Positions 13,958-46,952 of a DNA stretch of 64,000 nucleotides are shown here, one piece after another. The DNA comes from a virus, in IMG/VR virus record IMGVR_UViG_3300027770_000025, positions 248,001-312,000 of that record, one strand, 5' to 3'. The notes beneath the pieces are model-generated. The model did no database searches, had not been told where the DNA came from, and worked only from the letters and a program-made list of their open reading frames with translations. The first letter of the stretch is position 1; each line of letters starts with the position of its first letter. The position numbers and the translations under genes were made by a program.

Positions 13958-14125
13958 ATGGCAATACATAAAAACGAACTTACCATAATGGACACCAAAG
14001 ACATATCTTTAAGTCCAAAACCAGTGATTTATTTCCCTAAAACACTAAAAAATTCAGACAATTTTACTAGCATCAAAAAAACCACTCCGATTGGGAGAAA
14101 TCTGTGCGGTTACACAAAAAAATAA
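13958..14125 (+). CDS. Small protein of unknown function (55 aa) preceding phoH
   Basis: ATG at 13,958 to TAA at 14,123-14,125; 55 codons. The product begins MAIHKNELTIMDTKDISLS and ends IGRNLCGYTKK; it is basic with no recognisable domain. It lies 7 bp upstream of the phoH ATG on the same strand and about 23 nt after a promoter-like element, which is the spacing expected of a first cistron. It could also be leader sequence without a product. Coding potential rests on position and an intact frame only. Confidence 0.4.
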   Translation: MAIHKNELTIMDTKDISLSPKPVIYFPKTLKNSDNFTSIKKTTPIGRNLCGYTKK

Positions 14126-14132
14126 ATATAAT

Positions 14133-14900
14133 ATGGCTAACAGAAAAAAAAGAATTACCGACGAAGAATTTTATGAGGATTTCCCTCCTGGATATCAATC
14201 CCCTAATGCATCCAGATTCGATTTGCAAAAATTAAAGGTTGACTTTAAATTTAAAAACGAGAATCAAAAAAATCTCTCAAATCTTATAAATGACAATAAG
14301 ATCACTATCGTAGCTGGCCCAGCAGGAACAGGTAAAACTTATCTAGCATGTGCTCAAGCTCTAAAGCTCATAAAGAATGATACTAGGTTTAAGAAAATAA
14401 TACTAGTAAAAAGTGTAACTGTTTTAGAAGGGGAAGAGGTAGGATTCCTTAAAGGTGACCTTAAAGAAAAAATGTTACCCTTTACCATATCTTTCCTTGA
14501 TAACTTTCATAAAGTTATTGGAGAGGGGTTAACCCAAATTATGTTGGATCAAGGTTATATCGAGGTATTACCTTTAGCTTTTATTAGGGGTAGATCTATA
14601 GACAACGCAATTATAATAGTAGACGAAGCCCAGAATATAACTCAGAAAAATATGAGATCTACTATGACTAGAATAGGTACAGACACTAAGATGATTATTA
14701 CAGGTGACACCAAACAGATAGACATGAAAAATCCAAAGCTATCGTCTCTTGATTTAGTTGTTAAGATATTTCAAAATAAGGATAATATCGGAACAATGCA
14801 CTTTGGTGTTAACGATATAGTTAGGGATCCAATAGTAAAACTTATAGAGGAAACATTCGATGAATGGGAAGAAAAAAATTCAAAGCCAAATAAGGGATAA
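14133..14900 (+). CDS. phoH: PhoH-like P-loop ATPase
   Basis: 255 residues from the ATG at 14,133. A TTG farther upstream (14,091) is in frame but overlaps the preceding small ORF, so the ATG is preferred. Walker A is GPAGTGKT (residues 62-69) and Walker B with the PhoH signature is VDEAQN (163-168). A further conserved motif, GDTKQID, lies at 191-197. PhoH proteins are cytoplasmic ATPases related to superfamily-1 helicases. They are very common in phages, where their role is unsettled: RNA-linked or phosphate-starvation functions have been proposed. This is one of only three plus-strand genes in the window and faces the 1344-residue tail gene end to end. Confidence 0.93.
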   Translation: MANRKKRITDEEFYEDFPPGYQSPNASRFDLQKLKVDFKFKNENQKNLSNLINDNKITIVAGPAGTGKTYLACAQALKLIKNDTRFKKIILVKSVTVLEGEEVGFLKGDLKEKMLPFTISFLDNFHKVIGEGLTQIMLDQGYIEVLPLAFIRGRSIDNAIIIVDEAQNITQKNMRSTMTRIGTDTKMIITGDTKQIDMKNPKLSSLDLVVKIFQNKDNIGTMHFGVNDIVRDPIVKLIEETFDEWEEKNSKPNKG

Positions 14901-24969: not shown

Positions 24970-25500
24970 TTAAAAAACCCTTTTATTATTTTTTTTAACC
25001 GTGTAATTAATAAAATTCTTAATCTGTTTGGTCGTTTCAACTAGACCAAAAACTACCCTATTAAAATATCCGAGTATTCCCTCTTTGATCGGATCTCTAT
25101 AAAGAACGTTAGATAAAGATCTTTTTAATAACTGGTCTTTATAATCAAATCCGTTATAGAGATTGTCATTAAAGCTATCCCTTATATCATAGATATTCTG
25201 TGTGGGATCAAATTCATAGTACCTTCTTTCTACTGGAATTTTTGGCATTAATTTCATAATAGTTTTATATTGCAGCATATCAGAGCAAGGTGCATATTTA
25301 TATTCTCCTAAACCGCTAGAAAGAATTCTTCTATATCCAGAGCATCCTATATTATAAGATCTTTCGGAAGCAAGTTCTGCTGTTGGGTATAAATCCTTAG
25401 CATCGTAGAAAGTAGTGTTATTCGTTTGCGGTTTTATCCCAGCAACGGTATAGTTTATTCCTTTCTTAAGGTCCGGAAAAAATGGTGAATAGTTATCCAT
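24970..25500 (-). CDS. Baseplate-operon protein of unknown function (176 aa)
   Basis: The protein starts MDNYSPFFPDLKKGINYTVA. It overlaps the upstream gp6-like gene by one base (TAATG) and ends 3 bp before the 1396-residue gene, so it is translationally linked to the wedge genes. It is rich in Tyr, Asp and Asn, with a basic C-terminus (INYTVKKNNKRVF), and contains three Cys residues without a clear metal-binding spacing. I recognise no domain. Position suggests a small wedge or wedge-to-periphery adaptor. Confidence 0.5.
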   Translation of the reverse strand: MDNYSPFFPDLKKGINYTVAGIKPQTNNTTFYDAKDLYPTAELASERSYNIGCSGYRRILSSGLGEYKYAPCSDMLQYKTIMKLMPKIPVERRYYEFDPTQNIYDIRDSFNDNLYNGFDYKDQLLKRSLSNVLYRDPIKEGILGYFNRVVFGLVETTKQIKNFINYTVKKNNKRVF

Positions 25501-27224
25501 TAGTTATTTTTTATAAGTTGAGATTTCATTTCAGCATTTAGAGACATGTTAAAATTCATGGGTATTATTTTAGCAATACTTACATTAAGAGCTCCAGGTT
25601 TACCCTGAATGATTCCCTGTTGATAATCTGTACCATTTCTATCGGTCCATCCTCCTCTTAAAACAACCAAGTCATTTCTACCTATTACAATATCTCCAAA
25701 TTCATTAAGTCCAACCTGGTTTTGTAACTGAGCAGCTGAAACGTTGGTTAAACTTCTAACTAGAGTTTGATTTTTTTCATTAGCTTCACCTACAAAATAG
25801 AAAGAAACCGAATCGACTCCATCAACAGATTCAACTAACGCTATTATATCAGATTTAGGAATGAAATCTCTTCTTTTTAGGTTTAGCATATACTCGGAAA
25901 TTTTCTTTCTTATAGCTTGTCTTATTGTCTCCGGATCATACCCTTCAAACATAGTAATTACCACGTTTGCAACATATCTTTTAATTCGAGGTTCAACTAT
26001 TCTAACAACAGTTGTTGCGATCATAGACCCTGAATCCTCAATAAGATTTATTATTTTATTTTTCTGGTTAGTGCTAAGTAAAAAGTCTGATACTGGAATA
26101 TCGAAATAATCCTCATTAGAAGAGATATTTAAAGTTATATCGGGAACTAAGAAAATATAAACAACGTTATCATCATCAAGATAATCATCATCAAATGTGG
26201 AAAATGCTTGAATCTGAGAGAATATACCAAGTTTATTTAGAAAAACTTCGTAATTTTGCGCATTGGCAAAAACAAAAGATCTGCTGGTCTTTGGTGCAAC
26301 CAATCTTATTAGATTTGTAGTTTCTGGATTGGTTCCGAAAGAAGGATCTATAGCATTAAGAGCATCTATATACTCATTTAGATCTACCTCAGCTCCAAAT
26401 AAATCTGTTCCGCTGGTAACCAATTTATAAGTTAGAGGTTTTTCCTTAGTGGAAATAGCGTTTCCTGATCCTCCTGATGTCTGAAGATATTCTATTCTTA
26501 TTCTCGAGCCTCTTTGCGGAACCATACCAAAATTAGAATTTCCAAAATAAACATCCAGTCCTTCCTGTATTCCCGTTCTAACAATAAATCCCTTTCCATT
26601 TAAAGGAATATCATATAATGAATCATATCTTCTCCATTTTTCCTCGTTAACATAAACATCAACATAGAACTGGTCAAGGTAAGATCCAGCGGAAGACGGA
26701 AGATTAAAACTTTGCAAAGCGTTTCCAGTTCCGGTTACTACAGAACTAATAAAATCCCCCTGTGCTACTTTAACTCTAAGCGGGCTTGGACTACCACTAA
26801 GTTGAATAGTTACCCTTGAAGATCCAAAAACTAAAGAATATAATTTACCATTTTCCTGACATCTTATTTGTGCATGGTTGTTGATTATAACCGCGCTTCC
26901 CCCTATATCTGATTGTCTTCTATTCCAGGATAATGTTACTTCACCTTGTGCAGTACTTGCTCTTCCGGGATCATAGCCGGCTATTCTAGCTAAACTCCTA
27001 ACAGAATAATCTCTAGTTGCTTGTTCTATATTTAATTCCGTTATTGAATCCTCTATAAAATACAGAATCATCTGCGAAAGGTTTTGCAAAACGAAAAGAA
27101 TCTGTCCCCAAGCAGATGCTACGGTAAAGAGATTTGTTGTTTGGTTATACGTGTCCTGCAGGAAAGAAAACGTGTCGTTTAATAGACCGTTAATAAGGAT
27201 ATTATTTTTCTTAAAAATATTCAT
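25500..27224 (-). CDS. Baseplate wedge protein, gp6/J-like
   Basis: 574 residues starting MNIFKKNNILINGLLNDTFS. The features fit the gp6/baseplate J family. There is an N-terminal helical part (~1-80); a central beta domain with the typical motif around FGNSNFGMVPQRGSRIRIEY (~228-247) followed by a Gly/Ser-rich turn and GNAIS; and a C-terminal alpha/beta part (~395-480) with VANVVITMFEGYDPETIRQA and DIIALVESVDGVDSV. In T4, gp6 dimers form the inner ring joining the wedges around the hub. It directly follows the gp25-like gene (gap 9 bp), the T4 order. Family assignment is firm; exact stoichiometry is not knowable here. Confidence 0.85.
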   Translation of the reverse strand: MNIFKKNNILINGLLNDTFSFLQDTYNQTTNLFTVASAWGQILFVLQNLSQMILYFIEDSITELNIEQATRDYSVRSLARIAGYDPGRASTAQGEVTLSWNRRQSDIGGSAVIINNHAQIRCQENGKLYSLVFGSSRVTIQLSGSPSPLRVKVAQGDFISSVVTGTGNALQSFNLPSSAGSYLDQFYVDVYVNEEKWRRYDSLYDIPLNGKGFIVRTGIQEGLDVYFGNSNFGMVPQRGSRIRIEYLQTSGGSGNAISTKEKPLTYKLVTSGTDLFGAEVDLNEYIDALNAIDPSFGTNPETTNLIRLVAPKTSRSFVFANAQNYEVFLNKLGIFSQIQAFSTFDDDYLDDDNVVYIFLVPDITLNISSNEDYFDIPVSDFLLSTNQKNKIINLIEDSGSMIATTVVRIVEPRIKRYVANVVITMFEGYDPETIRQAIRKKISEYMLNLKRRDFIPKSDIIALVESVDGVDSVSFYFVGEANEKNQTLVRSLTNVSAAQLQNQVGLNEFGDIVIGRNDLVVLRGGWTDRNGTDYQQGIIQGKPGALNVSIAKIIPMNFNMSLNAEMKSQLIKNN

Positions 27225-27233
27225 TTCTGTATA

Positions 27234-27605
27234 TTAGGTTATTCTTAATGTAACTAGAGGACTTAAACCCCCGTTAGCTGGTATTTTAAAATCTATAGTT
27301 GCTATGTCTCTCTCTGTTCCCTGATAAAATTTAAGGTCATAAGATCCACCTAGCTTTCTGAAAAGAGGAATATATGTTTTTAAAAACAAATCCAATTCAT
27401 TTCTAATGCTAGATTCGGAAAGATTTAAACTAAATATAAGCTCCTCCAGATTAAGTCCAAATTTAGTGTCGCCAAGTACTTCACCTTTATTAGTAAGAAG
27501 TATCATTTTTAATTGGCCAACGCAAATTTCTACCGGATCGGTTGTTTCGATCTGGTAGGGGTTGTAGCTTGGGTCTAGTGGATCCCTGTTATAAATCTCT
27601 CTCAT
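27234..27605 (-). CDS. Baseplate wedge protein, gp25-like
   Basis: 123 residues starting MREIYNRDPLDPSYNPYQIE. It carries the conserved gp25 pattern: a central helix and strand QLKMILLTNKGEVLGDTKFG (~32-51) followed by LNLEELIF, then a C-terminal strand pair ending PLVTLRIT. In T4, gp25 contacts gp6 and nucleates the sheath, and this family is one of the best conserved in contractile tails. It begins its own transcription unit with a GATATATA element 16 nt upstream and is followed by the gp6-like gene. Confidence 0.88.
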   Translation of the reverse strand: MREIYNRDPLDPSYNPYQIETTDPVEICVGQLKMILLTNKGEVLGDTKFGLNLEELIFSLNLSESSIRNELDLFLKTYIPLFRKLGGSYDLKFYQGTERDIATIDFKIPANGGLSPLVTLRIT

Positions 27606-27657: not shown

Positions 27658-27693
27658 AAAAAACCCCCAATTTATAAAAAATTAGGGGTTTTT
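27658..27693 (-). terminator. Rho-independent terminator
   Basis: Inverted repeat AAACCCC...TTT/AAA...GGGGTTT with flanking A and T runs, 16 bp after the stop of the 258-residue gene. T-runs on both sides would let it work in either direction, but only minus-strand genes flank it. Confidence 0.85.
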
Positions 27694-27708
27694 CTGTTAA
27701 TGTTTATT

Positions 27709-28485
27709 TTAATTCCACTGTAAAAAATAGGAAGGAGTGTTCTCACCATTAATCATATCCATAACTTCTTGTAATTCAGCTTCTCCTGTTGTTCTGATAT
27801 CAGAAGCGTTTATCTGAACACCACCAGGTAAATTATAGGTAAATACAGAAAGCATGTTTGCTAATGCTATTTTAGATTTAGCAATGCAATATCTAACAAA
27901 AAGCTCATCTGCAAAAAGATCATCGTCATTTAGTGCAACAAAGCATCTAACAGATACATCAGTACCACCAACCCCAAACCCCTGAGCAAGTTGGCCTTTA
28001 CCGGATCTACCAGGATCCCTACCCAGAATGGTTAATTTTTTGCTATTTTTATTCCATTTAAAAGCAAAAGTCTCTAATAAATATGCTTTAGCTAAATCGA
28101 AATATGAGTACATGACAGTACGATAAACTAGGTTATCCCCAACAAAAGGAGAAAGTAATAATTCAGATCCAAGCAATTTAGAATCACCAAAATCCCTATC
28201 TGGATTACCTGATATACCAGAGCCCCCAACTTCTCTAACATCATATATGCTAATAATTGATTCTGGTAATTTTATTTGTCTGGTTGCTCTAAATTCAGGA
28301 TGTCTGAATATTTCATTTTGTAAAATAAAAACTCTATCCTCAACAGCATATTGATAATTATCGAAAAACCATGCTTTGGCCCTTTTGATTATTCTTTTTG
28401 TTTCTTGCTGATTTAGATTATATGGAAGGGCACAGCTAAAAGAAAGTGCGTCTTCTATTTCTTGTATTAATTCTTCTTCTGTCAT
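27709..28485 (-). CDS. Conserved phage structural protein, probable neck or baseplate (258 aa)
   Basis: The protein starts MTEEELIQEIEDALSFSCAL and is mainly helical. The C-terminal region (VRYCIAKSKIALANMLSVFT, then YNLPGGVQINASDI) has the helix-LPGGV-x-hN pattern I associate with an uncharacterised structural family of marine T4-like phages; this is recollection, not a search result. It is the last gene of the unit that starts with the S1-domain gene and is followed by a strong terminator. A role in the neck or as a wedge accessory is possible. No catalytic residues are recognised. Confidence 0.5.
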   Translation of the reverse strand: MTEEELIQEIEDALSFSCALPYNLNQQETKRIIKRAKAWFFDNYQYAVEDRVFILQNEIFRHPEFRATRQIKLPESIISIYDVREVGGSGISGNPDRDFGDSKLLGSELLLSPFVGDNLVYRTVMYSYFDLAKAYLLETFAFKWNKNSKKLTILGRDPGRSGKGQLAQGFGVGGTDVSVRCFVALNDDDLFADELFVRYCIAKSKIALANMLSVFTYNLPGGVQINASDIRTTGEAELQEVMDMINGENTPSYFLQWN

Positions 28486-28501: not shown

Positions 28502-29908
28502 TTAAAAGTTCATGTTACCAAATCTTAAATTATTGTATCTATCATTTAGATCTTTTAATCTCTTATCAGTAACGAACCTTTCCTTTCTGAAATCTTCCCA
28601 GCCTTTAACTTTCAGCGTCTCCTTACTTACGTCAGCATTTTCACCAATCTCACCAGCCCTTAGAACTCCATCTTTTATCTTACAGTTAATACTTTTGCCT
28701 TCGCAATCAATAAAGCAATCTTCAAGTTCGTTTCCAAAATCAACAACGCAGTCTTTGATCTTCGAAGATGTAACTATAGTATCATTAACTATATAGCATT
28801 CCTCTATTGAGGATTTTTTTATCTTGGAGCTGTAAATATTACAGTTTTTTATTATACCATTCTTTATGTCGCAAAGGATCAAATCAATATCTTTGAGTTC
28901 CAAAGCCTCTCTACTTCTAGCGTCTTTTAATTGGCATCTTCCTGTGGTAGTGTCATAATTAAAATACCCAGAGGTAACGTTACCCTCAACGATTATATCA
29001 AATATTTTATCCCTGATAACAGACCAGTATGTTTTTATGTTCTCGTCCCATCCTTTAAGATCTACAAAAATATGGAAATCGGGGTAATTTCTAAAGAAGA
29101 AATCAGGATCACTAAAAGATCTAACAACCTTAGTATACTGATTCATCATACTCTGAAGCTTAGCAAGGTCATCTTTTGAGTATCCTGATATTCTGTGGCT
29201 AAGCAAGTCATAAAGGTAAAGAATCACATAATCTATAATCTCTCTTATGTCTTTGCTTTTCTTTTGGTAATCACGATTACCAAGATATCTAAATTCTAAA
29301 TATCCCTTGGGTATTTTTGTGAAGTTTACCCCGTAGTATTTGTCTTCTGGAACTTTAAACATTTTGGGATCAATAGTAGTTAGATTTTCGATCATAGAAA
29401 ATCTATTCCTAGGAACCACTCTTTTTATAGATTTAGCATAAACATTTTTAGATCTATCTCCAAATTTAGAATAGATGAAATTCTCATCAAATCCTAATAT
29501 AAATTTTAACTTGTCTAGATTTTCTATCCTATCCTTAACTTCTTTCCTGAACTTGTCAAAGCTAACAGAGAATTGGAATGCACATCTATCTGTCGTCCAA
29601 CCATTTTCGTCTATCCAATTAAGGACTTTAATTAATATAGTAATAGCTTCATTATAGGGTAGTGGACCAGTAATGAACTCCATCATTTTGCTCCCTCCAG
29701 AATAATCTGGTTCTAGCTTACATGTGCTGGCATCCACAACAATATTAGAGTGGTACCTTTCGGATACCACTACTTTTTTGTTTATTAGCTTGGAAAGGGA
29801 TTCAGCTGTTCTGCCCTTTAGCATATTGGTATAGAATTCAAACTCGAATCCTATTACCGAAGAGCTAAGAGCATGGAGCTTATCAAAATGTGTTCTATTA
29901 TCGCTCAT
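28502..29908 (-). CDS. Putative amidoligase (glutamine-synthetase-like fold) with pentapeptide-repeat tail
   Basis: 468 residues. The N-terminal ~300 residues fit the putative amidoligase family (COOH-NH2 ligases of the glutamine synthetase superfamily): an early acidic strand IGFEFEFY (~19-26), a second acidic motif SGGSKMMEFITGPLPY (~71-86), a strand in the usual His/Ser position CAFQFSVSFD (~109-118), and the late E-x-R motif GYLEFRYLGNRD. Residues ~346-415 form five-residue repeats with Ile in the core and Cys/Ser/Asp two positions before (IKNCNIYSSKIKKSSIEECY), a pentapeptide-type beta-solenoid. The family is thought to join amino groups to carboxylates using ATP; its substrate here is unknown. 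It overlaps the S1-domain gene by 11 bp and lies in a baseplate operon, so both may be expressed late. Whether it is packaged or acts in the cell is open. Confidence 0.6.
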   Translation of the reverse strand: MSDNRTHFDKLHALSSSVIGFEFEFYTNMLKGRTAESLSKLINKKVVVSERYHSNIVVDASTCKLEPDYSGGSKMMEFITGPLPYNEAITILIKVLNWIDENGWTTDRCAFQFSVSFDKFRKEVKDRIENLDKLKFILGFDENFIYSKFGDRSKNVYAKSIKRVVPRNRFSMIENLTTIDPKMFKVPEDKYYGVNFTKIPKGYLEFRYLGNRDYQKKSKDIREIIDYVILYLYDLLSHRISGYSKDDLAKLQSMMNQYTKVVRSFSDPDFFFRNYPDFHIFVDLKGWDENIKTYWSVIRDKIFDIIVEGNVTSGYFNYDTTTGRCQLKDARSREALELKDIDLILCDIKNGIIKNCNIYSSKIKKSSIEECYIVNDTIVTSSKIKDCVVDFGNELEDCFIDCEGKSINCKIKDGVLRAGEIGENADVSKETLKVKGWEDFRKERFVTDKRLKDLNDRYNNLRFGNMNF

Positions 29909-31088
29909 TTACCGGCTCTGCGAAAATTTTTCCGCTAGCGGGTTCAACTTGATAAACCGTAACTAGTAGATCGTCCCCGGGTTTAAGATTATTGGTTTTT
30001 TTACCAATTCTCTCCTGAGGGATAAGAGCCATAAGACCAAATGCTACAAGATCAATAAGAATACCATTTTTTCTCTTGTGTTTAATTTTTGCTTCAATTG
30101 GCTCGCATGTTCCGTCCTTGATTTGTTTATCAAGATCGTGTATAATAACGTTTCTTTCTAGAGGTTTCTCTAGGGTTAATGTTAATCTGTTATTGTCTTT
30201 AATCTCCTTAACGTAAAATTCGATCTCATCACCAGGATTTACACTAGTAATTGAGTTATCCTCGCTGAATTCAGTTTTATGTATAAGTCCAGTATAAACC
30301 TCTTCCCATTCAACAAATACGCCAAAGTTGCTTGTTCCAGTAACATATCCTTTATATTTCTTAGTAAGATCCAATTCCTGAATCTTGCTTTCCATAATTT
30401 TATTAAGATATTTCTTATAAGAAACGATAAAGATGTCCTTAGCTTCAATGTATCCTTCAATCATTACATGTAATTCTTTACCTATATAAGATTCAAAATC
30501 AGTAATTCTATTAGCAGCAGCCAAAGATCCAGGTAAGAAACATTTAATACCAGATAGATCAACAATATATCCACCCTTATTAATGCTCTCTATCTTAACC
30601 AGGTATGCACTAGACTCCTTCTTAATCTGTTCGAATAATTCAACTCTAAGGCTGTGTATGTAATATTCAACAACAGAACCTGAGTATACTCCCCCGCTTT
30701 TTCTAATCTTAGCCTGTAATACATCTCCTGGATTGAAAGATATGTCAGTTATTTTTAATTTGTCAGCGTCTTTTCTCTCCTTCTTAAGATCTATGTAAAT
30801 TGTTTGCCCTGTGCTTGTTTGTGCTAGTGCTTCTGTCTCGGTAACACTAACGACCTTACATGGGTAAATGCTACCCTCGTCAAGATCTTTAGATAAACTC
30901 ACATTTCCAGAAACCTCTCCGAAATAATTATTATAAGCATCTAATAGTTCCTGAGCATAAGGCTCATGACAATAGACTTTAGATCCACTAGGAATCCTTT
31001 TTAGTTTAGTGTTTGGTTTTCTGCCATTCTCTACGTCCCAGTTAAAATCGTCCGGGTTGTGTGTTTTATTTGATGATAAATCGATCAT
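29898..31088 (-). CDS. S1-domain RNA-binding protein, ribosomal protein S1-like
   Basis: 396 residues. At least three OB-fold S1 repeats are readable: ~160-220 (NKGGYIVDLSGIKCFLPGSL), ~245-308 (KGYVTGTSNFGVFVEWEEVY then GLIHKTE, and a closing VKEIKDNNRLTLTLE), and ~325-392 (RKNGILIDLVAFGLMALIP). A more divergent one lies at ~75-150. In bacteria S1 binds AU-rich mRNA leaders on the 30S subunit. Cellular S1 usually has four to six repeats, so this is a compact version. The first ~60 residues are unlike S1. The phage leaders are A-rich without Shine-Dalgarno sequences, so a role in mRNA recruitment is attractive, but this is inference. It is the first gene of a unit with a GATATATA element ~32 nt upstream and overlaps the amidoligase gene by 11 bp. 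Confidence 0.8.
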   Translation of the reverse strand: MIDLSSNKTHNPDDFNWDVENGRKPNTKLKRIPSGSKVYCHEPYAQELLDAYNNYFGEVSGNVSLSKDLDEGSIYPCKVVSVTETEALAQTSTGQTIYIDLKKERKDADKLKITDISFNPGDVLQAKIRKSGGVYSGSVVEYYIHSLRVELFEQIKKESSAYLVKIESINKGGYIVDLSGIKCFLPGSLAAANRITDFESYIGKELHVMIEGYIEAKDIFIVSYKKYLNKIMESKIQELDLTKKYKGYVTGTSNFGVFVEWEEVYTGLIHKTEFSEDNSITSVNPGDEIEFYVKEIKDNNRLTLTLEKPLERNVIIHDLDKQIKDGTCEPIEAKIKHKRKNGILIDLVAFGLMALIPQERIGKKTNNLKPGDDLLVTVYQVEPASGKIFAEPVNER

Positions 31089-31161: not shown

Positions 31162-32697
31162 TTAAAAAACTACAGGAACAAAACCTACCATAGGAGCAGG
31201 CCCACCAGGGGTTGGTACACCTCCGTTATAAATTAGCTTAAACTCAAGCATATTGGCTGCAAAGGAGAAAGCTAGAGCACTAGAAACTGCGATAGCACTG
31301 ATTCTTCTTTCTGGTATTGTTTTAAAAATTTTTCCTGTATTAAATGCTCTTCTGAGATAATCAGCAAGTCTTTTTCGACTTCCGTAATAAATCGGTGTAT
31401 AGAAACCACCTAAGGGTGGAGGGATTACACAAGGGGGTACAGGGGGAGTTGTAGCAAATGGCTGTAGTATTGTAGATACCCAATAATCTGAAATCCCCTT
31501 AGCCATGATATTATAAGGATCATTAGGATTAGCCTCATCTTCCACCGAAGATCTATCTGCATCAGCAATTGCAGCATCTATTAATTCCTGTACGTATCTT
31601 CTTTTTAGCTCCAAGAATCTTTCTGCCTCTGCTTTATATTCTATAGCCTTAGATTCAGATATACCATCAGATGTGTTTACTATTTCCGAATAAAGCTCAG
31701 ATCCTGTAGATAACCCTTTAACTAGATAATCTAACTGGCCTACTCCAAAAGCATCAATCTCACCACCAAAGAGATTGTCTAGATTAGCATTAGTTAGTAT
31801 ATTGCTTACTTTAAAAGCCTCATCTATATTGGCATCTATCTCGTCATCAGTATCATAATATTCATCTCCAGAATTTATCTCTTCATCAGTATAATAATCG
31901 CTGCTCAAGATTTTTAATTTTTTGAATAGCCCACTATCATACCTTTTATCATAAGTGAACTTAGTTATAAAATCCATTACCATATAATTAGGAATCCTCT
32001 GCGGATCATTAATATGCTCCTCCTGAAATAGCTCCTTAGATATGTTAATATTACGAAGATTCTTAAAATCCTCTATTTTTTTATCGCTGCTAGTTCCTAT
32101 GCTTTTTATAATCTCTATAGATTTATCTACAACTTCCTTTGTCCAATCAGAATAGCTAGGATCGAATCCTATTACATATAACCATTGTATATAATCTGAT
32201 GTTCCGTCATATTTTTGAACTATTCTTCTAGCTATTTCTAAAACTTGCCCACTCCTTGTCTTTGGAAAATTTGGAAATTGTGAGAAAAATATTGAATATG
32301 TAAAATCAGGTATACTTGCCCCGTTTAACTCTGCCCATGCTAAAAATTCAAGATCAAATTTATCCCGATACTCCTCAATATCAATGAGCGGAATTGGCTC
32401 TTTTAGATCCTCATATTTAGGATCTTTTAATTTCTTCTCTAATGTAGGTGATTTTTCGCTCTCAAGCAATTTAAAAGCTTTCGAAAATGCAGTCTTTAAT
32501 AATTCTGAATTCCCCTTCCGGTGTAAGTTACCAAACGGTGTTTGTGCGTTATTGTTTACAGCTAAAACATATTGATCCGCAAGATATGTTGCAAAATCAT
32601 CGACATCCTTTCCTGCAGGATCATAAGGTCCCTGAATCGATTGTCCAGAAAGCTTATTAGAAACATTAGTTATAAAAGAACTCCAATTTGCTGGCAT
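31162..32697 (-). CDS. Probable tail or baseplate structural protein (511 aa)
   Basis: The protein starts MPANWSSFITNVSNKLSGQS. The first ~60 residues read as an assembly domain (around DVDDFATYLADQYVLAVNNN). The middle is helical and charged (around TKEVVDKSIEIIKSIGTSSD), with an acidic run near 276-292 (DEEINSGDEYYDTDDEID). The C-terminus is hydrophobic and Pro/Gly-rich (VPTPGGPAPMVGFVPVVF). I recognise no known family. It starts 2 bp after the gp5-like spike gene and belongs to the hub operon, so a hub-associated or assembly role is likely. Confidence 0.5.
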   Translation of the reverse strand: MPANWSSFITNVSNKLSGQSIQGPYDPAGKDVDDFATYLADQYVLAVNNNAQTPFGNLHRKGNSELLKTAFSKAFKLLESEKSPTLEKKLKDPKYEDLKEPIPLIDIEEYRDKFDLEFLAWAELNGASIPDFTYSIFFSQFPNFPKTRSGQVLEIARRIVQKYDGTSDYIQWLYVIGFDPSYSDWTKEVVDKSIEIIKSIGTSSDKKIEDFKNLRNINISKELFQEEHINDPQRIPNYMVMDFITKFTYDKRYDSGLFKKLKILSSDYYTDEEINSGDEYYDTDDEIDANIDEAFKVSNILTNANLDNLFGGEIDAFGVGQLDYLVKGLSTGSELYSEIVNTSDGISESKAIEYKAEAERFLELKRRYVQELIDAAIADADRSSVEDEANPNDPYNIMAKGISDYWVSTILQPFATTPPVPPCVIPPPLGGFYTPIYYGSRKRLADYLRRAFNTGKIFKTIPERRISAIAVSSALAFSFAANMLEFKLIYNGGVPTPGGPAPMVGFVPVVF

Positions 32698-32699
32698 CG

Positions 32700-33401
32700 T
32701 TATTTGGTTTTAGATACTTGACTTAAATGCTGAGGATCTGTCATAGGTACAATAGGTACACCAGAAGGTCCTACCCCAGTTGGGTGTGTATGGGCATTAA
32801 AGAAAGTTAGAAAGGTGCTTCCTAAAACTAGTTTCTCTATAGCGGCTTCCCCCAGCTCTATATTTTGAGATTTTACAATCACTTTTTGCTTTGCCCCTTG
32901 TTTTTCCATTCTAACCTCGTCATCATTCAGTTTTAAAACTATTCTAAGTTTCTCTTTATCCGTTCCAGCATTTTGTGTATCAAGTTGAATAGTTGCATCA
33001 CCGAGTTGAAAAACAAGACCTTTTTTTCTTGTGTATATCATCTTCAGAGTTCCTGGTTGAGCCTCCGAGTCATAAATTAAAGCATGTGTACCCTCATATG
33101 AATTATCCTCCTTGAGTTCTGTCATAAGATCCTTAGAAATCTCCTTAATATAGTGATAGCTTATCTTGTAATAATTATTATCCTCAAAATGAACTGCTAC
33201 GACAGAGCCTACTCTAGGTATGCTTATGTTGCCTCCGCCGAAATCTCCGCCAAAAGATAAACCTGCAATCTGTTCTGCCCAGGGCAAATCATCAGAAGGA
33301 ATACCGTCAAATATACCAAAAACTTCTATTTTTGCTCTTCCTTGGTAAAGTGGATCTTCAATATCAACCACCTTACCAAGGTATGTTTTTTCACTTGGCA
33401 T
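32700..33401 (-). CDS. Baseplate spike/hub OB-fold protein, gp5-like, without lysozyme domain
   Basis: 233 residues. The N-terminus (LGKVVDIEDPLYQGRAKIEV, ~8-27) and IPRVGSVVAVHFEDNNYYKI (~61-80) match the OB-fold of T4 gp5 and related spike proteins. The C-terminal region has short alternating strands and the signature FFNAHTHPTGVGPSGVP, which is common at the end of gp5/VgrG-type spikes. T4 gp5 is 575 residues with an internal lysozyme domain; here there is no room for one, so wall penetration must rely on another protein. It sits 2 bp after the repeat-bearing 846-residue gene and downstream of the gp27-like hub, the expected partner. Confidence 0.8.
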   Translation of the reverse strand: MPSEKTYLGKVVDIEDPLYQGRAKIEVFGIFDGIPSDDLPWAEQIAGLSFGGDFGGGNISIPRVGSVVAVHFEDNNYYKISYHYIKEISKDLMTELKEDNSYEGTHALIYDSEAQPGTLKMIYTRKKGLVFQLGDATIQLDTQNAGTDKEKLRIVLKLNDDEVRMEKQGAKQKVIVKSQNIELGEAAIEKLVLGSTFLTFFNAHTHPTGVGPSGVPIVPMTDPQHLSQVSKTK

Positions 33402-33403
33402 AA

Positions 33404-35944
33404 TTATTCAAATTTTTCAGGACTAGGATTCATCCCACCTGTGCTAATATTATACTTATCTTTCGATTTTAAATTTCCCATATCTAAAGGGTTTTCGACT
33501 ATAAAATCTCCGCTCGTGTTCGGATAAGCTTTTCCTATATCTCCCCTTGATTTTCTACTCTCCATTTCAGATTTTTGATAAACTGCATTAGGCTTTGTAG
33601 TGAATGTGTTTACTGCATCTCTAAGTTCCCCATTAGAAGCAATTTTTTGTGTTTGTGCATAAACAGGTCCTGCTTCTATAGTTGTTTGATTTGCATTTTT
33701 TACAGCATCAGGATAAACCTTTTGTTCAGTGAGTGGTATTGGATTTTGATTAGGTGGATATACATCGTCTGATATTTGGGGATAAACTCTATCAGGTACA
33801 CCTAGATCAGATCCAGGAACGTTGGAATAAGCATCACCTCCTGGATTAGTGTAAACCCTATCGGGTACACCTAGGTCAGATCCGGGAACGTTGGAATAAG
33901 CATCACCTACTGGATTAGTGTAAACCCTATCGGGTACACCTAGAGCAGTTCCTGGTACATCACTATAAACGTCTCCACCGGGATTAGTGTAAACCCTATC
34001 GGGAACACCTAGAGCAGTTCCTGGTACATCACTATAAACGTCTCCACCAGGATTAGTATAAACCCTATCTGGTACACCTAAGTCTGTTCCAGGTACGCTA
34101 GTGTACGCGTCCCCGCCAGGTGCGGGATATACCCTATCGGGGACTCCTAAGTCTGCTCCAGGCACAGTAGCATAGACGTCACCAGTGGGAACAGGATATA
34201 CCCTATCAGGAACACCTAAATCAGTCCCAGGCACAGTAGCATAGACGTCACCCGTGGGAACAGGATATACCCTTCCAGGTACACCCAAATCTGTACCAGG
34301 TACTTCGTTGTAAGCATCACCCACTGGTGCGGTATAAACTCTATCAGGAACTCCTAAATCAGGTCCGGGTACACTCGTGTATGAGTCTCCCCCGGGTGCA
34401 GGGTAAACCCTACCTTGAATACCAGATACGCTGCTAACACCTAAATCTTGACCCGGTACTTTACCATATACGTCATCTGATACTTTTTTATAAACTCTCT
34501 GTGGCGGACCACCTAAACCTGCTGTTTGTGGATTAGGTAGCTCTGTCTTTTTGAATCCAGCATTAACATTACCTAGTTGATCCAAGAATTGCTGAGCACT
34601 GTTAAATGATAATTTACCTAATACCTGGGAAGGATTCAAGCTATATATGTTACCAAGGGCTAGTGAGTCTAAGCCAGCAACATTAGGTTTTATGAAGCTT
34701 GCAACTCCTTCGTTAATAAGATCATTTAGTGAATTACTTAAAAAGTTAGTTAATAGCTCACCCCCCATAGAAAGAATATCACTACCTAAATTACTAGGAT
34801 TTCTCTGAACCGATGATCTAGCTCCGTCCCAACTATCACCAAGAATCATCGGCTTACCGTCTTGTCTGATATTTGGATATTGGTTTCTCATTCTGACCCT
34901 GCCTACTATAATTCTGAATTTCTGTCCTACTGGTGTTGCTATGTCTGAACCCGCACTGATCTCAGTTGGAATTGCTGTGCTCTCGCTGAAATCGAATTCA
35001 CAATTTCTGCACTCAAAAACTATAACCGGCTTTATGCCTGATTGATCTTGTTGATTTCTAAACATAGACAAATCGTTATCAACACCAGCCCCACCTAAGA
35101 CATTACCTACAAACGAATTAAATCCGCTTGCAGGATTTGTGTCTGATGATCCCCCGTTATTTTCGCTATTCTGTTCACCCGCAACATCTCCTATGTTTGT
35201 CCCTGGGTTATTGCCGGATCCAAGCATCGATGTTAAATTGTCTATCGTAGTTAAAGCAGCAGAAGATCCTATAAGTCTAGATGTCTTGAAAAAATTACGT
35301 ATTTCAGAAACGAAAATATACATAGTAAATTTTCTAAGGTTTCTTGGAACTAACTCTCTCATATTATCATAGTCAAAAGTTGCCTGATTATATAGATCTG
35401 CAAGAGCACTCATTCTCAAATTTAGAGACTCCAATGTGGTAAACTCTAAAGCCTTACTTGCAGTTCTTTGTGAGTTAAATTCACTACCAGACTCAGCAGC
35501 AAATCCCTTTCTTGATACCAAAGATAATTGATCTAATCCTGATATTGTCTGTAAAAACCAAGGTGAATTATTAAGTAAGTCAGTTAAACTATTTTTAAAC
35601 TGTATAAGCATATCTGATCTTTTTCCTCCCCTAGGAAATTGTGCCTCCCTTTCTCTTAGATATGATGTTGCAGAATAAAAATTGATAGCTCCATTTGGTG
35701 TAGTCCTGTAGGAATACTGCGGTTGGCCGAAAGGATTATTTGAGCTAAATCCACTAGGAATATATGATGTTTCTCTAAAAAGAGGACTGGGAGGAAGACC
35801 GTCGTCATCTCTTATTGGGAGTGTACCGAAATCTATCACTATTTTAAATCCAAGATATGTTGGATCCTCGTACTTTCCTTGTTTGGATAGCTTAAAGCCT
35901 TTTAAAAATAGACTCCTTAATTTATCTGTTGCTCCTAGTGACAT
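33404..35944 (-). CDS. Hub-operon structural protein with nine 23-residue repeats (846 aa)
   Basis: The protein starts MSLGATDKLRSLFLKGFKLS. Residues 1-~500 are a mixed domain that includes a Cys-bearing beta segment (PVIVFECRNCEFDFSES). Residues 512-718 are nine tandem 23-residue repeats with consensus RVYxxPxGDxYxxVPGxDLGVPD, flanked by one degenerate copy on each side. The tail is polar. The repeat has a fixed Tyr/Pro/Gly spacing and no helix signal, suggesting an extended or beta-turn rod. Copies differ little and two adjacent ones encode identical residues, so copy number probably changes by recombination. It lies between the gp27-like hub and the gp5-like spike. I do not recognise the globular domain. 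Confidence 0.6.
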   Translation of the reverse strand: MSLGATDKLRSLFLKGFKLSKQGKYEDPTYLGFKIVIDFGTLPIRDDDGLPPSPLFRETSYIPSGFSSNNPFGQPQYSYRTTPNGAINFYSATSYLREREAQFPRGGKRSDMLIQFKNSLTDLLNNSPWFLQTISGLDQLSLVSRKGFAAESGSEFNSQRTASKALEFTTLESLNLRMSALADLYNQATFDYDNMRELVPRNLRKFTMYIFVSEIRNFFKTSRLIGSSAALTTIDNLTSMLGSGNNPGTNIGDVAGEQNSENNGGSSDTNPASGFNSFVGNVLGGAGVDNDLSMFRNQQDQSGIKPVIVFECRNCEFDFSESTAIPTEISAGSDIATPVGQKFRIIVGRVRMRNQYPNIRQDGKPMILGDSWDGARSSVQRNPSNLGSDILSMGGELLTNFLSNSLNDLINEGVASFIKPNVAGLDSLALGNIYSLNPSQVLGKLSFNSAQQFLDQLGNVNAGFKKTELPNPQTAGLGGPPQRVYKKVSDDVYGKVPGQDLGVSSVSGIQGRVYPAPGGDSYTSVPGPDLGVPDRVYTAPVGDAYNEVPGTDLGVPGRVYPVPTGDVYATVPGTDLGVPDRVYPVPTGDVYATVPGADLGVPDRVYPAPGGDAYTSVPGTDLGVPDRVYTNPGGDVYSDVPGTALGVPDRVYTNPGGDVYSDVPGTALGVPDRVYTNPVGDAYSNVPGSDLGVPDRVYTNPGGDAYSNVPGSDLGVPDRVYPQISDDVYPPNQNPIPLTEQKVYPDAVKNANQTTIEAGPVYAQTQKIASNGELRDAVNTFTTKPNAVYQKSEMESRKSRGDIGKAYPNTSGDFIVENPLDMGNLKSKDKYNISTGGMNPSPEKFE
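33791..34411 (-). repeat. Nine tandem 69-bp coding repeats
   Basis: Nine head-to-tail 69-bp units with no spacers, each encoding 23 residues of the 846-residue protein. Several neighbouring units are almost identical at the DNA level; those encoding TNPGGDVYSDVPGTALGVPD are the closest. The frame is kept throughout. Confidence 0.95.
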
Positions 35945-37543: not shown

Positions 37544-38134
37544 TTAGCTTGTCTGCGGTGTATTGAATCCTCCTCCGCCAGCATTCGGAGCGAATACAAA
37601 GAATCCTTTTTTCTTTAATATTGTCTTTTCCCCTGGTTGTAATACATTAGGTGGAAGATTAAGCTCGGGCTTATTTTTTATTTTATCCTGTAAAAATTTC
37701 TTTCTGCCGTCACTCACTTTAAATTTTTTCTGCTCCTGATTTTTCTTGAATACGTTATTAGGATTTGTATTTGTATTAGAAGTAACCTGCTGATTCTGTA
37801 TTTTCTTAACCCTAAAAGTTTCCTTTACCGTACTGGCATCAGGGATTGCTAAAGCCATACCCTCCTTTAAAGCAAAGGGATTACCTATTGCATTAAACTT
37901 TAATAGCGACCCAACCATACCGGGATCTCCCAGTTTAATAGCTGCTATTAGATCTGGTCTCATTTGATAATACTCGGTAACAATAAAGAAAGAAGCTATC
38001 GATACAGGTAAGTTTTTATATGTTATAGAAGCTTTAGTTAAATCCCATATACCATAGGTTCCCGTTGTATTCAAATCAGTTTGAGGATTGAATACTGATT
38101 TATTCTGGGTGATGGTGTCTATTATTAATGCCAT
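37544..38134 (-). CDS. gp53-like baseplate protein with LysM-type fold
   Basis: 196 residues. Residues ~48-100 follow the LysM/gp53 pattern: YYQMRPDLIAAIKLGDPGMV, then LLKFNAIGNPFALKEGMALA ending in IPD, in which a Tyr-Arg-Pro-Asp-Leu-Ile helix is followed by an Asn-x-Ile ... Leu-x-x-Gly ... Ile-Pro turn. In T4, gp53 clamps neighbouring wedges together. The remainder is a low-complexity linker rich in Asn, Gln and Lys (ending ANAGGGGFNTPQTS), probably disordered. It lies 6 bp before the hub gene. Confidence 0.65.
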   Translation of the reverse strand: MALIIDTITQNKSVFNPQTDLNTTGTYGIWDLTKASITYKNLPVSIASFFIVTEYYQMRPDLIAAIKLGDPGMVGSLLKFNAIGNPFALKEGMALAIPDASTVKETFRVKKIQNQQVTSNTNTNPNNVFKKNQEQKKFKVSDGRKKFLQDKIKNKPELNLPPNVLQPGEKTILKKKGFFVFAPNAGGGGFNTPQTS

Positions 38135-45545: not shown

Positions 45546-46952
45546 CTATATGTTGTCCAGAAAAAGATCCACAGCTTTTTGTCTGTATTTAAGCTTATCC
45601 TCCTTGATCTCTGGATTTTTTAATGCCTCTTTCTTCCTATTGACAACAGAGTCGGGAAGCATTGGTCCGAATGTGTCTTTTAGAATCTTTTTATCAGTTC
45701 TCCATTCGAGCGGAAGATGTAAAGCAAATCTAACTATATCAAGGTTTAAGAAGGGGCTTCTTAGCTCTAGAGTATGAGCCATAGACATCTTATCCAATCT
45801 AGGTAAATGATAATAAGACAGTTCATCAAATACATCAGATTGCTGGGAGTCATATTCATGTATTCTTGAATATCCTCCAAATAGCTCATCAGATCCATCA
45901 CCACTTAAAACTATTCTATAACCAGATTCTTTCTTAACTGCCTCAAATAAATGATACTGCGGGATCACTGATCCTAAATCCACCGGTGTTTCATTCCATA
46001 GCGTGTATATAAGAGCATTCTTACTTGAATCCATACTATAGTCTAGAAAATTGACAGAAGTGCTTAAATGTGCGCTTAAATCGTTTACAAACGGTGTTTC
46101 CCCATTCTCTATAGTAAACCACGTAACCTTGGCATTCATTTCTTTTAGTACCCCTGCTATAATCGAAGAATCAAGACCCCCTGATACCAAAAGTGATATT
46201 GGGTAGTTCTTAGAGACAAGTCTATTTTTTACGCTCTCAAACATCTTATCCCACAGCCAACTCATGTGTGTCTCGTAATCTGCACCTTCTAGTTCGGATA
46301 TTGGTGATTCCCATGTTCTGTAATAAGGACCATATGTTTGTTCAAATAGAGGAGACGCTATATTATAAAAATAAAACGTATTAGGTAGAATCCTTTTAAT
46401 CGATTTAATCGGTGTTCTGTTGTCCTTATTGTAACCCCATTTTCTGATAGCACTTATATAGGTTTCGTCTAGCTCATCCAATACAGTGGTAAGACCCTTG
46501 ATCTCCGAACAAATCTCACCAAGATCATTCTTATAAAGGCATTTCTTTCCCAATGGATCAGTAAATGCGATTACACTTCCTTTATTAGAATCGTATATTA
46601 CTACCGCCCAAAATCCATCCCATGTTTGTATATGGGGTAAATATGCAGCAGCAAAGAATTCTAGATTTCCCCCTTTATATCCGCTGAATAAACTGCATAA
46701 ATATTCCGTATCAGAAGAAAATGTATTCCTGTCATAATTAAATATTTCCCCATTGAACATCAAATACACCCCGGGAGAAACTTCTCTTGGCTGATTCCAT
46801 TCGTCACCATCGGATGTTTGTATAGGCAATCTATGATGACATAATGTAATCTTATCAAGTTCCTCTACAGATCTTTCAATTCCCCTATGTTTTATCGTAT
46901 CTAAAATTTCAGGATGTTTATCCGCTCTAGTTGTTAATAATATTCCGCACAT
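45546..46952 (-). CDS. asnB: Glutamine-hydrolysing asparagine synthetase (AsnB-like)
   Basis: 468 residues, shorter than the ~550 usual for AsnB. The N-terminal class-II glutaminase has its nucleophile Cys2 (MCGIL), RLPI at 41-44 with QP at 54-55, and FNGEIFNYD at 66-74. The synthetase domain has the PPi loop SGGLDSS (257-263), SGDGSDELFGGY (350-361) and the C-terminal LELRSPFLNLDIV (395-407). All catalytic motifs I know are present, so the enzyme should make asparagine, or amidate another carboxylate, from glutamine, aspartate and ATP in the cytoplasm. It is embedded with a nucleotide kinase between head-core genes. Phage homologues exist, but their role is not settled. Relation to the amidoligase at 28,502 is discussed under findings. 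Confidence 0.92.
   Translation of the reverse strand: MCGILLTTRADKHPEILDTIKHRGIERSVEELDKITLCHHRLPIQTSDGDEWNQPREVSPGVYLMFNGEIFNYDRNTFSSDTEYLCSLFSGYKGGNLEFFAAAYLPHIQTWDGFWAVVIYDSNKGSVIAFTDPLGKKCLYKNDLGEICSEIKGLTTVLDELDETYISAIRKWGYNKDNRTPIKSIKRILPNTFYFYNIASPLFEQTYGPYYRTWESPISELEGADYETHMSWLWDKMFESVKNRLVSKNYPISLLVSGGLDSSIIAGVLKEMNAKVTWFTIENGETPFVNDLSAHLSTSVNFLDYSMDSSKNALIYTLWNETPVDLGSVIPQYHLFEAVKKESGYRIVLSGDGSDELFGGYSRIHEYDSQQSDVFDELSYYHLPRLDKMSMAHTLELRSPFLNLDIVRFALHLPLEWRTDKKILKDTFGPMLPDSVVNRKKEALKNPEIKEDKLKYRQKAVDLFLDNI

Follow-up and report, generated by a model that had tools for sequence, protein, structure and literature searches.

A gene of the neck/baseplate cluster in a group of huge phages encodes a protein of two-domain architecture, in which a glutamine synthetase (GS)-like fold with invariant ligase residues is joined to a pentapeptide-repeat solenoid; the gene is under purifying selection, is restricted to phages, is linked to neck and baseplate genes, and is retained after rearrangement. 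These observations suggest that very large phages may chemically modify or stitch a protein during tail building. The best explanation, to which we assign a little under an even chance, is that the protein would dock by its solenoid and act, as an ATP-dependent amide ligase, on a structural or assembly protein of the phage.

The window analyzed here is a stretch of 64,000 nucleotides, positions 248001-312000 of a virus record of 348.6 kb. The boundaries that an earlier note on this DNA had given the gene (28502-29908) proved exact, and the three motifs that it quoted are all present in the translation: IGFEFEFY at residues 19-26, MMEFITGPLPY at 75-85, and GYLEFRYL at 202-209. A whole-protein AlphaFold2 model, built with 40 relatives, has a pLDDT of 86.4 and a pTM of 0.80, and a domain model of the first 309 residues reaches 90.4 and 0.87; beyond the C-terminal beta cap the tail is of low confidence, with pLDDT <50 at residues 437-448 and 454-468. 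The gene and its parts are as follows.

28502..29908, minus strand: whole gene of the amidoligase-pentapeptide protein, an ORF of 468 aa with an ATG start
29264..29863, minus strand: GS-fold amidoligase domain, residues about 16-215 (conservation, AlphaFold2, Foldseek)
29831..29854, minus strand: IGFEFEFY with the ExE acid pair (E22, E24; motif residues 19-26), 192/192 relatives
29693..29713, minus strand: EPDYSGG motif (D68, S70), 193/193 relatives
29663..29686, minus strand: MMEFITGP motif (E77), 193/193 relatives
29558..29584, minus strand: CAFQFSVSF, the HxH metal-site strand, with Q112 in place of His (alignment of 193 relatives)
29324..29341, minus strand: KYYGVN motif (K190, N195), 193/193 relatives
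29285..29305, minus strand: GYLEFRY motif (E205, R207), 193/193 relatives
28979..29263, minus strand: helical bridge, residues about 216-310 (AlphaFold2 helices 218-236, 245-265, 268-274, 288-308)
28730..28918, minus strand: pentapeptide-repeat solenoid, residues about 331-393 (AlphaFold2 strands; Pentapeptide_4 in relatives; PDB pentapeptide matches)
28619..28729, minus strand: C-terminal beta cap, residues 394-430 (AlphaFold2 strands 394-407, 410-421)

The assignment of the window protein as an amidoligase rests on its relatives, its conserved residues, and its fold. Taken alone, the protein scores 14.6 bits (E 0.032) against Pfam Amidoligase_2 (PF12224), under the curated cut-off of 22 bits; homologues with the same architecture score 22.8 (two of them), 24.8, and 26.1 bits, the last two being roughly 75% identical to the window protein, and another of these homologues, the more distant L285, reaches 38.6 bits across nearly the whole profile. 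In profile-profile comparison with hhalign, the family aligns with the amidoligases of LUZ24, phiEco32, and Porphyromonas and Christensenellales phages at an E of 5e-6, and with the homologues from Atu_ph07 and SCTP-2 at 6e-15. The similarity to Amidoligase_2 that the earlier note had expected is therefore found in relatives over the cut-off and in profile-profile matches, the window protein itself being sub-threshold. No named PHROG family was matched by the window protein. Three further matches were set aside as chance: the NCBIfam DNA polymerase III epsilon model for the ligase domain (22.8 bits against a cut-off of 245), Chordopox_A35R for the tail (E 0.12), and an actin-depolymerizing factor (E 0.13).

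The earlier note had named the lack of a GS-like fold as what would tell against its reading; AlphaFold2 and Foldseek find that fold. Glutamine synthetases are the top Foldseek matches in the PDB for both the whole and the domain models (E about 3e-5, probability 1.00; for the domain model, E 3.6e-5 and probability 1.00), and YbdK and E. coli gamma-glutamylcysteine synthetase stand lower among them; TM-scores are 0.24-0.38 and the rmsd is high, so the fold match is at the superfamily level. A PDB sequence search with the ligase-domain profile returned nothing relevant, and the link to glutamine synthetase thus comes from fold and not from sequence. Among BFVD models the best match is an uncharacterized phage protein, A0A6J5PQ40, over its full length (TM 0.83), followed mainly by phage entries named 'amidoligase enzyme'.

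Conservation was counted over 193 distinct full-length relatives. Invariant among them are E22 and E24 (192/192), D68, S70, E77, E142, R152, K162, K190, N195, E205, and R207; columns conserved at ≥95% number 38/200 in the ligase and 2/83 in the solenoid, and dN/dS between close relatives is ~0.03 in every domain. The ExE, D.S, E, KY..N, and E.R motifs align with known Amidoligase_2 members: the GxExE motif also occurs in the LUZ24 and phiEco32 amidoligases, D68/S70 align with D53/S55 and E205/R207 with E190/R192 of LUZ24 gp18, and KYYGVN corresponds to KY..LN in known amidoligases. From what is known of glutamine synthetase, we take the metal/ATP site to be held by the ExE pair together with the His and ExR strands, and from the invariant E22, E24, and E205 we infer a putative two-acid metal/ATP site. 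The His strand is the variable element: the first His of HxH is H in 118/193 relatives and Q in 75/193, the window clade having Q, and the second is N, S, or G throughout the 193, so that the window protein reads QxS; on the tree, two independent H/Q changes are needed at residue 112. We know of nothing that makes the HxH of LUZ24/phiEco32-type amidoligases obligatory for Amidoligase_2.

Between residues 342 and 385 of the tail, AlphaFold2 places three-residue strands at a spacing of about 5 residues, followed by two long cap strands. Pentapeptide_4 is matched in relatives (best 5.6e-6), the family profile matches solved pentapeptide proteins at 3.8e-5, and the in-register hydrophobic pattern was equalled by 85 of 20,000 shuffles, with the caveat that the region had been picked beforehand. 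Unlike the invariant ligase motif positions, the solenoid varies among the 193 relatives.

The family is phage-borne and occurs on hundreds of viral contigs. Three overlapping scans of IMG/VR gave 567, 326, and 421 confirmed stretches. By tblastn against deposited phage genomes, full-length relatives (29-36% identity) were found only in unannotated metagenomic phages of 462-735 kb, and in Agrobacterium phage Atu_ph07 and Salicola phage SCTP-2 the matches are partial and fall in the ligase half. When 84,980 prokaryote genomes were scanned twice, the first scan returned none and the second a single locus (L285), which encodes a relative 35% identical to the window protein, lies on a contig binned in a Bacteroidetes MAG, and adjoins a weak match to a T4 neck protein (E 0.001) and a DUF285 protein. 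This contig is probably phage, and with one such relative in 84,980 genomes a cellular origin was rejected.

The baseplate setting that the earlier note had proposed is upheld by the neighbors, which match gp5-like, gp25-like, and gp6-like proteins and a head-tail adaptor.

25500..27224, minus strand: gp6-like baseplate wedge protein (phrog_219, E 7.2e-33)
27234..27605, minus strand: gp25-like baseplate wedge protein (phrog_120, E 1.1e-4)
27709..28485, minus strand: head-tail adaptor / neck-like protein, 258 aa (phrog_211)
29898..31088, minus strand: S1-domain protein, 396 aa (Pfam S1, E 1.7e-17, 64 bits)
32700..33401, minus strand: gp5-like baseplate hub/spike OB-fold protein (phrog_430, E 4.8e-15; Phage_base_V under cut-off)
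37544..38134, minus strand: small cluster protein, 196 aa (conserved neighbor family c1; LysM-like by eye)

At its 3' end the S1 gene runs 11 nt into the start of the ligase gene, and the adaptor gene lies 16 nt downstream of the ligase gene; its product's match to the phrog_211 head-tail adaptor recurs in 11/11 relatives. The c1 protein has no match in Pfam. Taken together, the relatives, conserved residues, fold, and neighbors bear out the earlier note's overall picture of a GS-like ligase domain and a five-residue-period solenoid within a baseplate cluster.

Gene order was compared among 41 representatives clustered at 70%, some of whose contigs stop short of the outer genes. About half of them, comprising the window clade and a second clade (L196-L275), share the order c3-c1-c2-c14/c11-gp5-like-variable gene-S1 protein-ligase-adaptor-gp25-like-gp6-like. 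The adaptor gene is directly downstream of the ligase gene in every syntenic representative, and the gene immediately upstream is S1 in all of them except L031 and L201. In the megaphage clade, the third of the three, this order is broken and the genes are often hundreds of kb apart; in the clade genomes checked, ligase and adaptor are nonetheless present in 11/11 and S1 in 10/11, even when unlinked. The ligase gene thus leaves the baseplate cluster in rearranged huge phages, and the linkage is not absolute.

Several other features of the region were recorded. The variable gene between the gp5-like and S1 genes (31162-32697, minus strand) ranges from about 95 to 1700 aa among phages that keep the order. 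An ORF in the baseplate cluster (33404-35944, minus strand) contains, at 33782-34372, a 69-nt unit repeated in tandem 8.6 times, which codes for a repeat of 23 residues resembling VPGxDLGVPDRVYxxPxGDxY. A strong-looking terminator-like hairpin lies between the adaptor and gp25-like genes (27658-27694, minus strand); matching gaps in relatives were folded and gave no clear common hairpin, and a conserved terminator behind the adaptor gene was dropped. A PhoH-like ATPase gene (14091-14900, plus strand) is on the strand opposite to the tail genes.

For Amidoligase_2, a glutamine amidotransferase neighbor is common but not universal. The partner that the earlier note had called frequent is lacking in its usual form: the only class-II amidotransferase domain found sits ~16 kb upstream of the ligase, in a candidate gene at 45546-46952 (minus strand) that was identified as an asparagine synthetase. 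This asparagine synthetase-like gene, in the late region, has an intact Cys2 and SGGLDSS; four related genomes also have it and the five 462-735 kb relatives do not, no amidotransferase domain having been found in them. COOH-NH2 ligase (PF14395) and cyclotransferase (PF06094) were not found in the window's genome. A RimK-type protein is encoded there, outside the window and about 73 kb from the ligase; it is an ATP-grasp protein of ~485 aa (L286:2078-3535, minus strand, about G000:C1:202577-204034), with a C-terminal stretch that by eye resembles a retropepsin/RimB-type domain.

In the mechanism that we propose, the protein would work as a GS-fold Amidoligase_2 enzyme, joining carboxylate to amine in an ATP-dependent amide ligation, and would probably be made late in infection alongside the tail proteins. 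Its pentapeptide solenoid would hold it on an assembling baseplate or neck protein, and the ligase would install an amide or isopeptide bond on one of the phage's structural or assembly proteins; first among the candidate substrates are the adjoining adaptor, the S1-domain protein, and the hub/spike proteins. No substrate with a recognizable acceptor signature was found, and a place among structural genes is no proof that the enzyme acts on their products; the exchange of a presumed metal-ligand His for Gln in the window clade counts against the proposal. Extended to huge contractile-tailed phages at large, the idea that a solenoid-docked GS-fold ligase puts amide or isopeptide bonds on neck/baseplate proteins during tail assembly is a tentative one, to which we give clearly less than an even chance; a covalent amide-ligase step in myovirus tail maturation is, to our knowledge, known in no described phage.

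The main rival to a docked amide ligase, as we judge it, is that the protein serves baseplate/neck assembly or structure through its pentapeptide tail, the GS-like domain having lost catalysis. The position of the gene beside hub and neck genes, its status as a core gene in the clade, and the His-to-Gln exchange at the metal site in the window clade all speak for this, as does the occurrence of pentapeptide accessory proteins for contractile-injection spikes (PMC13373197, PMC11883445). If the tail alone were important, however, the solenoid should be more conserved than the ligase, and the reverse is found: apart from the exchanged His, the ligase positions do not vary, and no part of the protein is better conserved than the ligase half. 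Conservation that peaks at the ligase site therefore disfavors a purely structural role, which we regard as rather unlikely, though the Gln at the metal site allows for it. A host-directed or small-molecule amidoligase riding in the late operon, with the cell wall, a superinfection block, or a metabolite as its business (compare the suggestion for phiEco32), would be in keeping with the metabolic partners around known phage amidoligases (PMC10580990), and the window's genome does encode a RimK protein and an asparagine synthetase elsewhere. We consider it unlikely, since the COOH-NH2 ligase and the cyclotransferase were not found, the amidotransferase domain is part of the asparagine synthetase and is missing from the 462-735 kb relatives, and a gene tied so closely to adaptor and baseplate genes does not resemble the early-gene cluster of LUZ24 and phiEco32.

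It is improbable, in our view, that the baseplate setting is incidental and that the ligase steers late translation by modifying either the adjoining S1-domain protein or S1/S6-like ribosomal proteins of the host. RimK-type ligases do act on ribosomal proteins, the S1 gene overlaps the ligase start and is directly upstream in nearly all syntenic representatives, and S1 persists in 10/11 clade genomes even where unlinked; Atu_ph07 and SCTP-2, whose homologues have no pentapeptide tail, carry ligase and adaptor with no S1 match found, although two genomes are a hint at most. Against these points, no direct link connects the two proteins, the adaptor gene is an even more constant neighbor, and the one genome that lacks S1 still has the ligase. 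Least probable of all, and very doubtful, is a tail that mimics DNA in the manner of Qnr, MfpA, or AlbG and acts on topoisomerases: the PDB matches do include all three, but these are generic pentapeptide proteins in the PDB, and the solenoid here is short, at ~10 strands, and is joined to a ligase encoded in a tail operon.

Amidoligase_2 enzymes are already known in phages. In a literature search that fell short of most subscription journals, we found no report of the fused pentapeptide tail, the neck/baseplate placement, or the status as a huge-phage core gene, and no paper treating amidoligases and baseplates as one system. Should the substrate be structural, tail building in huge phages would include a covalent step carried out by an enzyme, and the family would supply protein-ligating enzymes other than those of the PafA and transglutaminase kinds; should the domain be catalytically dead, it would show cleanly how tail assembly can take over an enzyme fold. 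A concrete, testable function is also gained for a core gene that lacks annotation in a widespread group of huge phages.

Among the closest known systems, A0A6J5PQ40 and the proteins of LR756500, LR745206, LR756501, LR756502, and LR756504 have the same architecture over their full length; they are unannotated, and in the largest genomes the ligase gene lies away from baseplate genes. The nearest relatives of the ligase domain in cultured phages, both jumbo phages, are Atu_ph07 AUZ94978, whose gene is near a portal gene, and SCTP-2 gp125; these lack the pentapeptide tail and were not seen in a gp25/gp6 cluster. Virion mass spectrometry has been published for Atu_ph07 (PMC6102473), and 'glutamine synthetase' genes have been reported in moraphages (PMC12619734). 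Among solved structures, glutamine synthetase, YbdK, and gamma-glutamylcysteine synthetase are closest to the ligase model, at ~10% identity and low TM, a likeness at the superfamily level only. For the tail, and for a non-catalytic assembly factor, the precedent is type VI secretion, where VgrG-PAAR spikes are chaperoned by DUF2169 proteins bearing a pentapeptide extension at the C terminus (PMC13373197, PMC11883445); in TvpAB/TvpB, as here, a pentapeptide extension is carried by an accessory protein encoded beside a contractile-injection spike, but there is no ligase domain, and the likeness to the phage protein is one of functional analogy only.

Known phage amidoligases are encoded beside a glutamine amidotransferase, a COOH-NH2 ligase, RimK, and a gamma-glutamyl cyclotransferase (PMC10580990), and in both LUZ24 and phiEco32 we find the COOH-NH2 ligase, amidotransferase, RimK, and cyclotransferase genes adjoining the amidoligase. 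LUZ24 gp18 and phiEco32 gp84 are phage-borne proteins of GS-like fold, as here, and their GxExE, D.S, E..(S/T)P, H position, KY..N, and EFR align with the ligase. They differ from it in that they belong to an early metabolic cluster and no pentapeptide tail is seen on them, whereas the ligase described here sits in a late neck/baseplate cluster and carries a solenoid tail.
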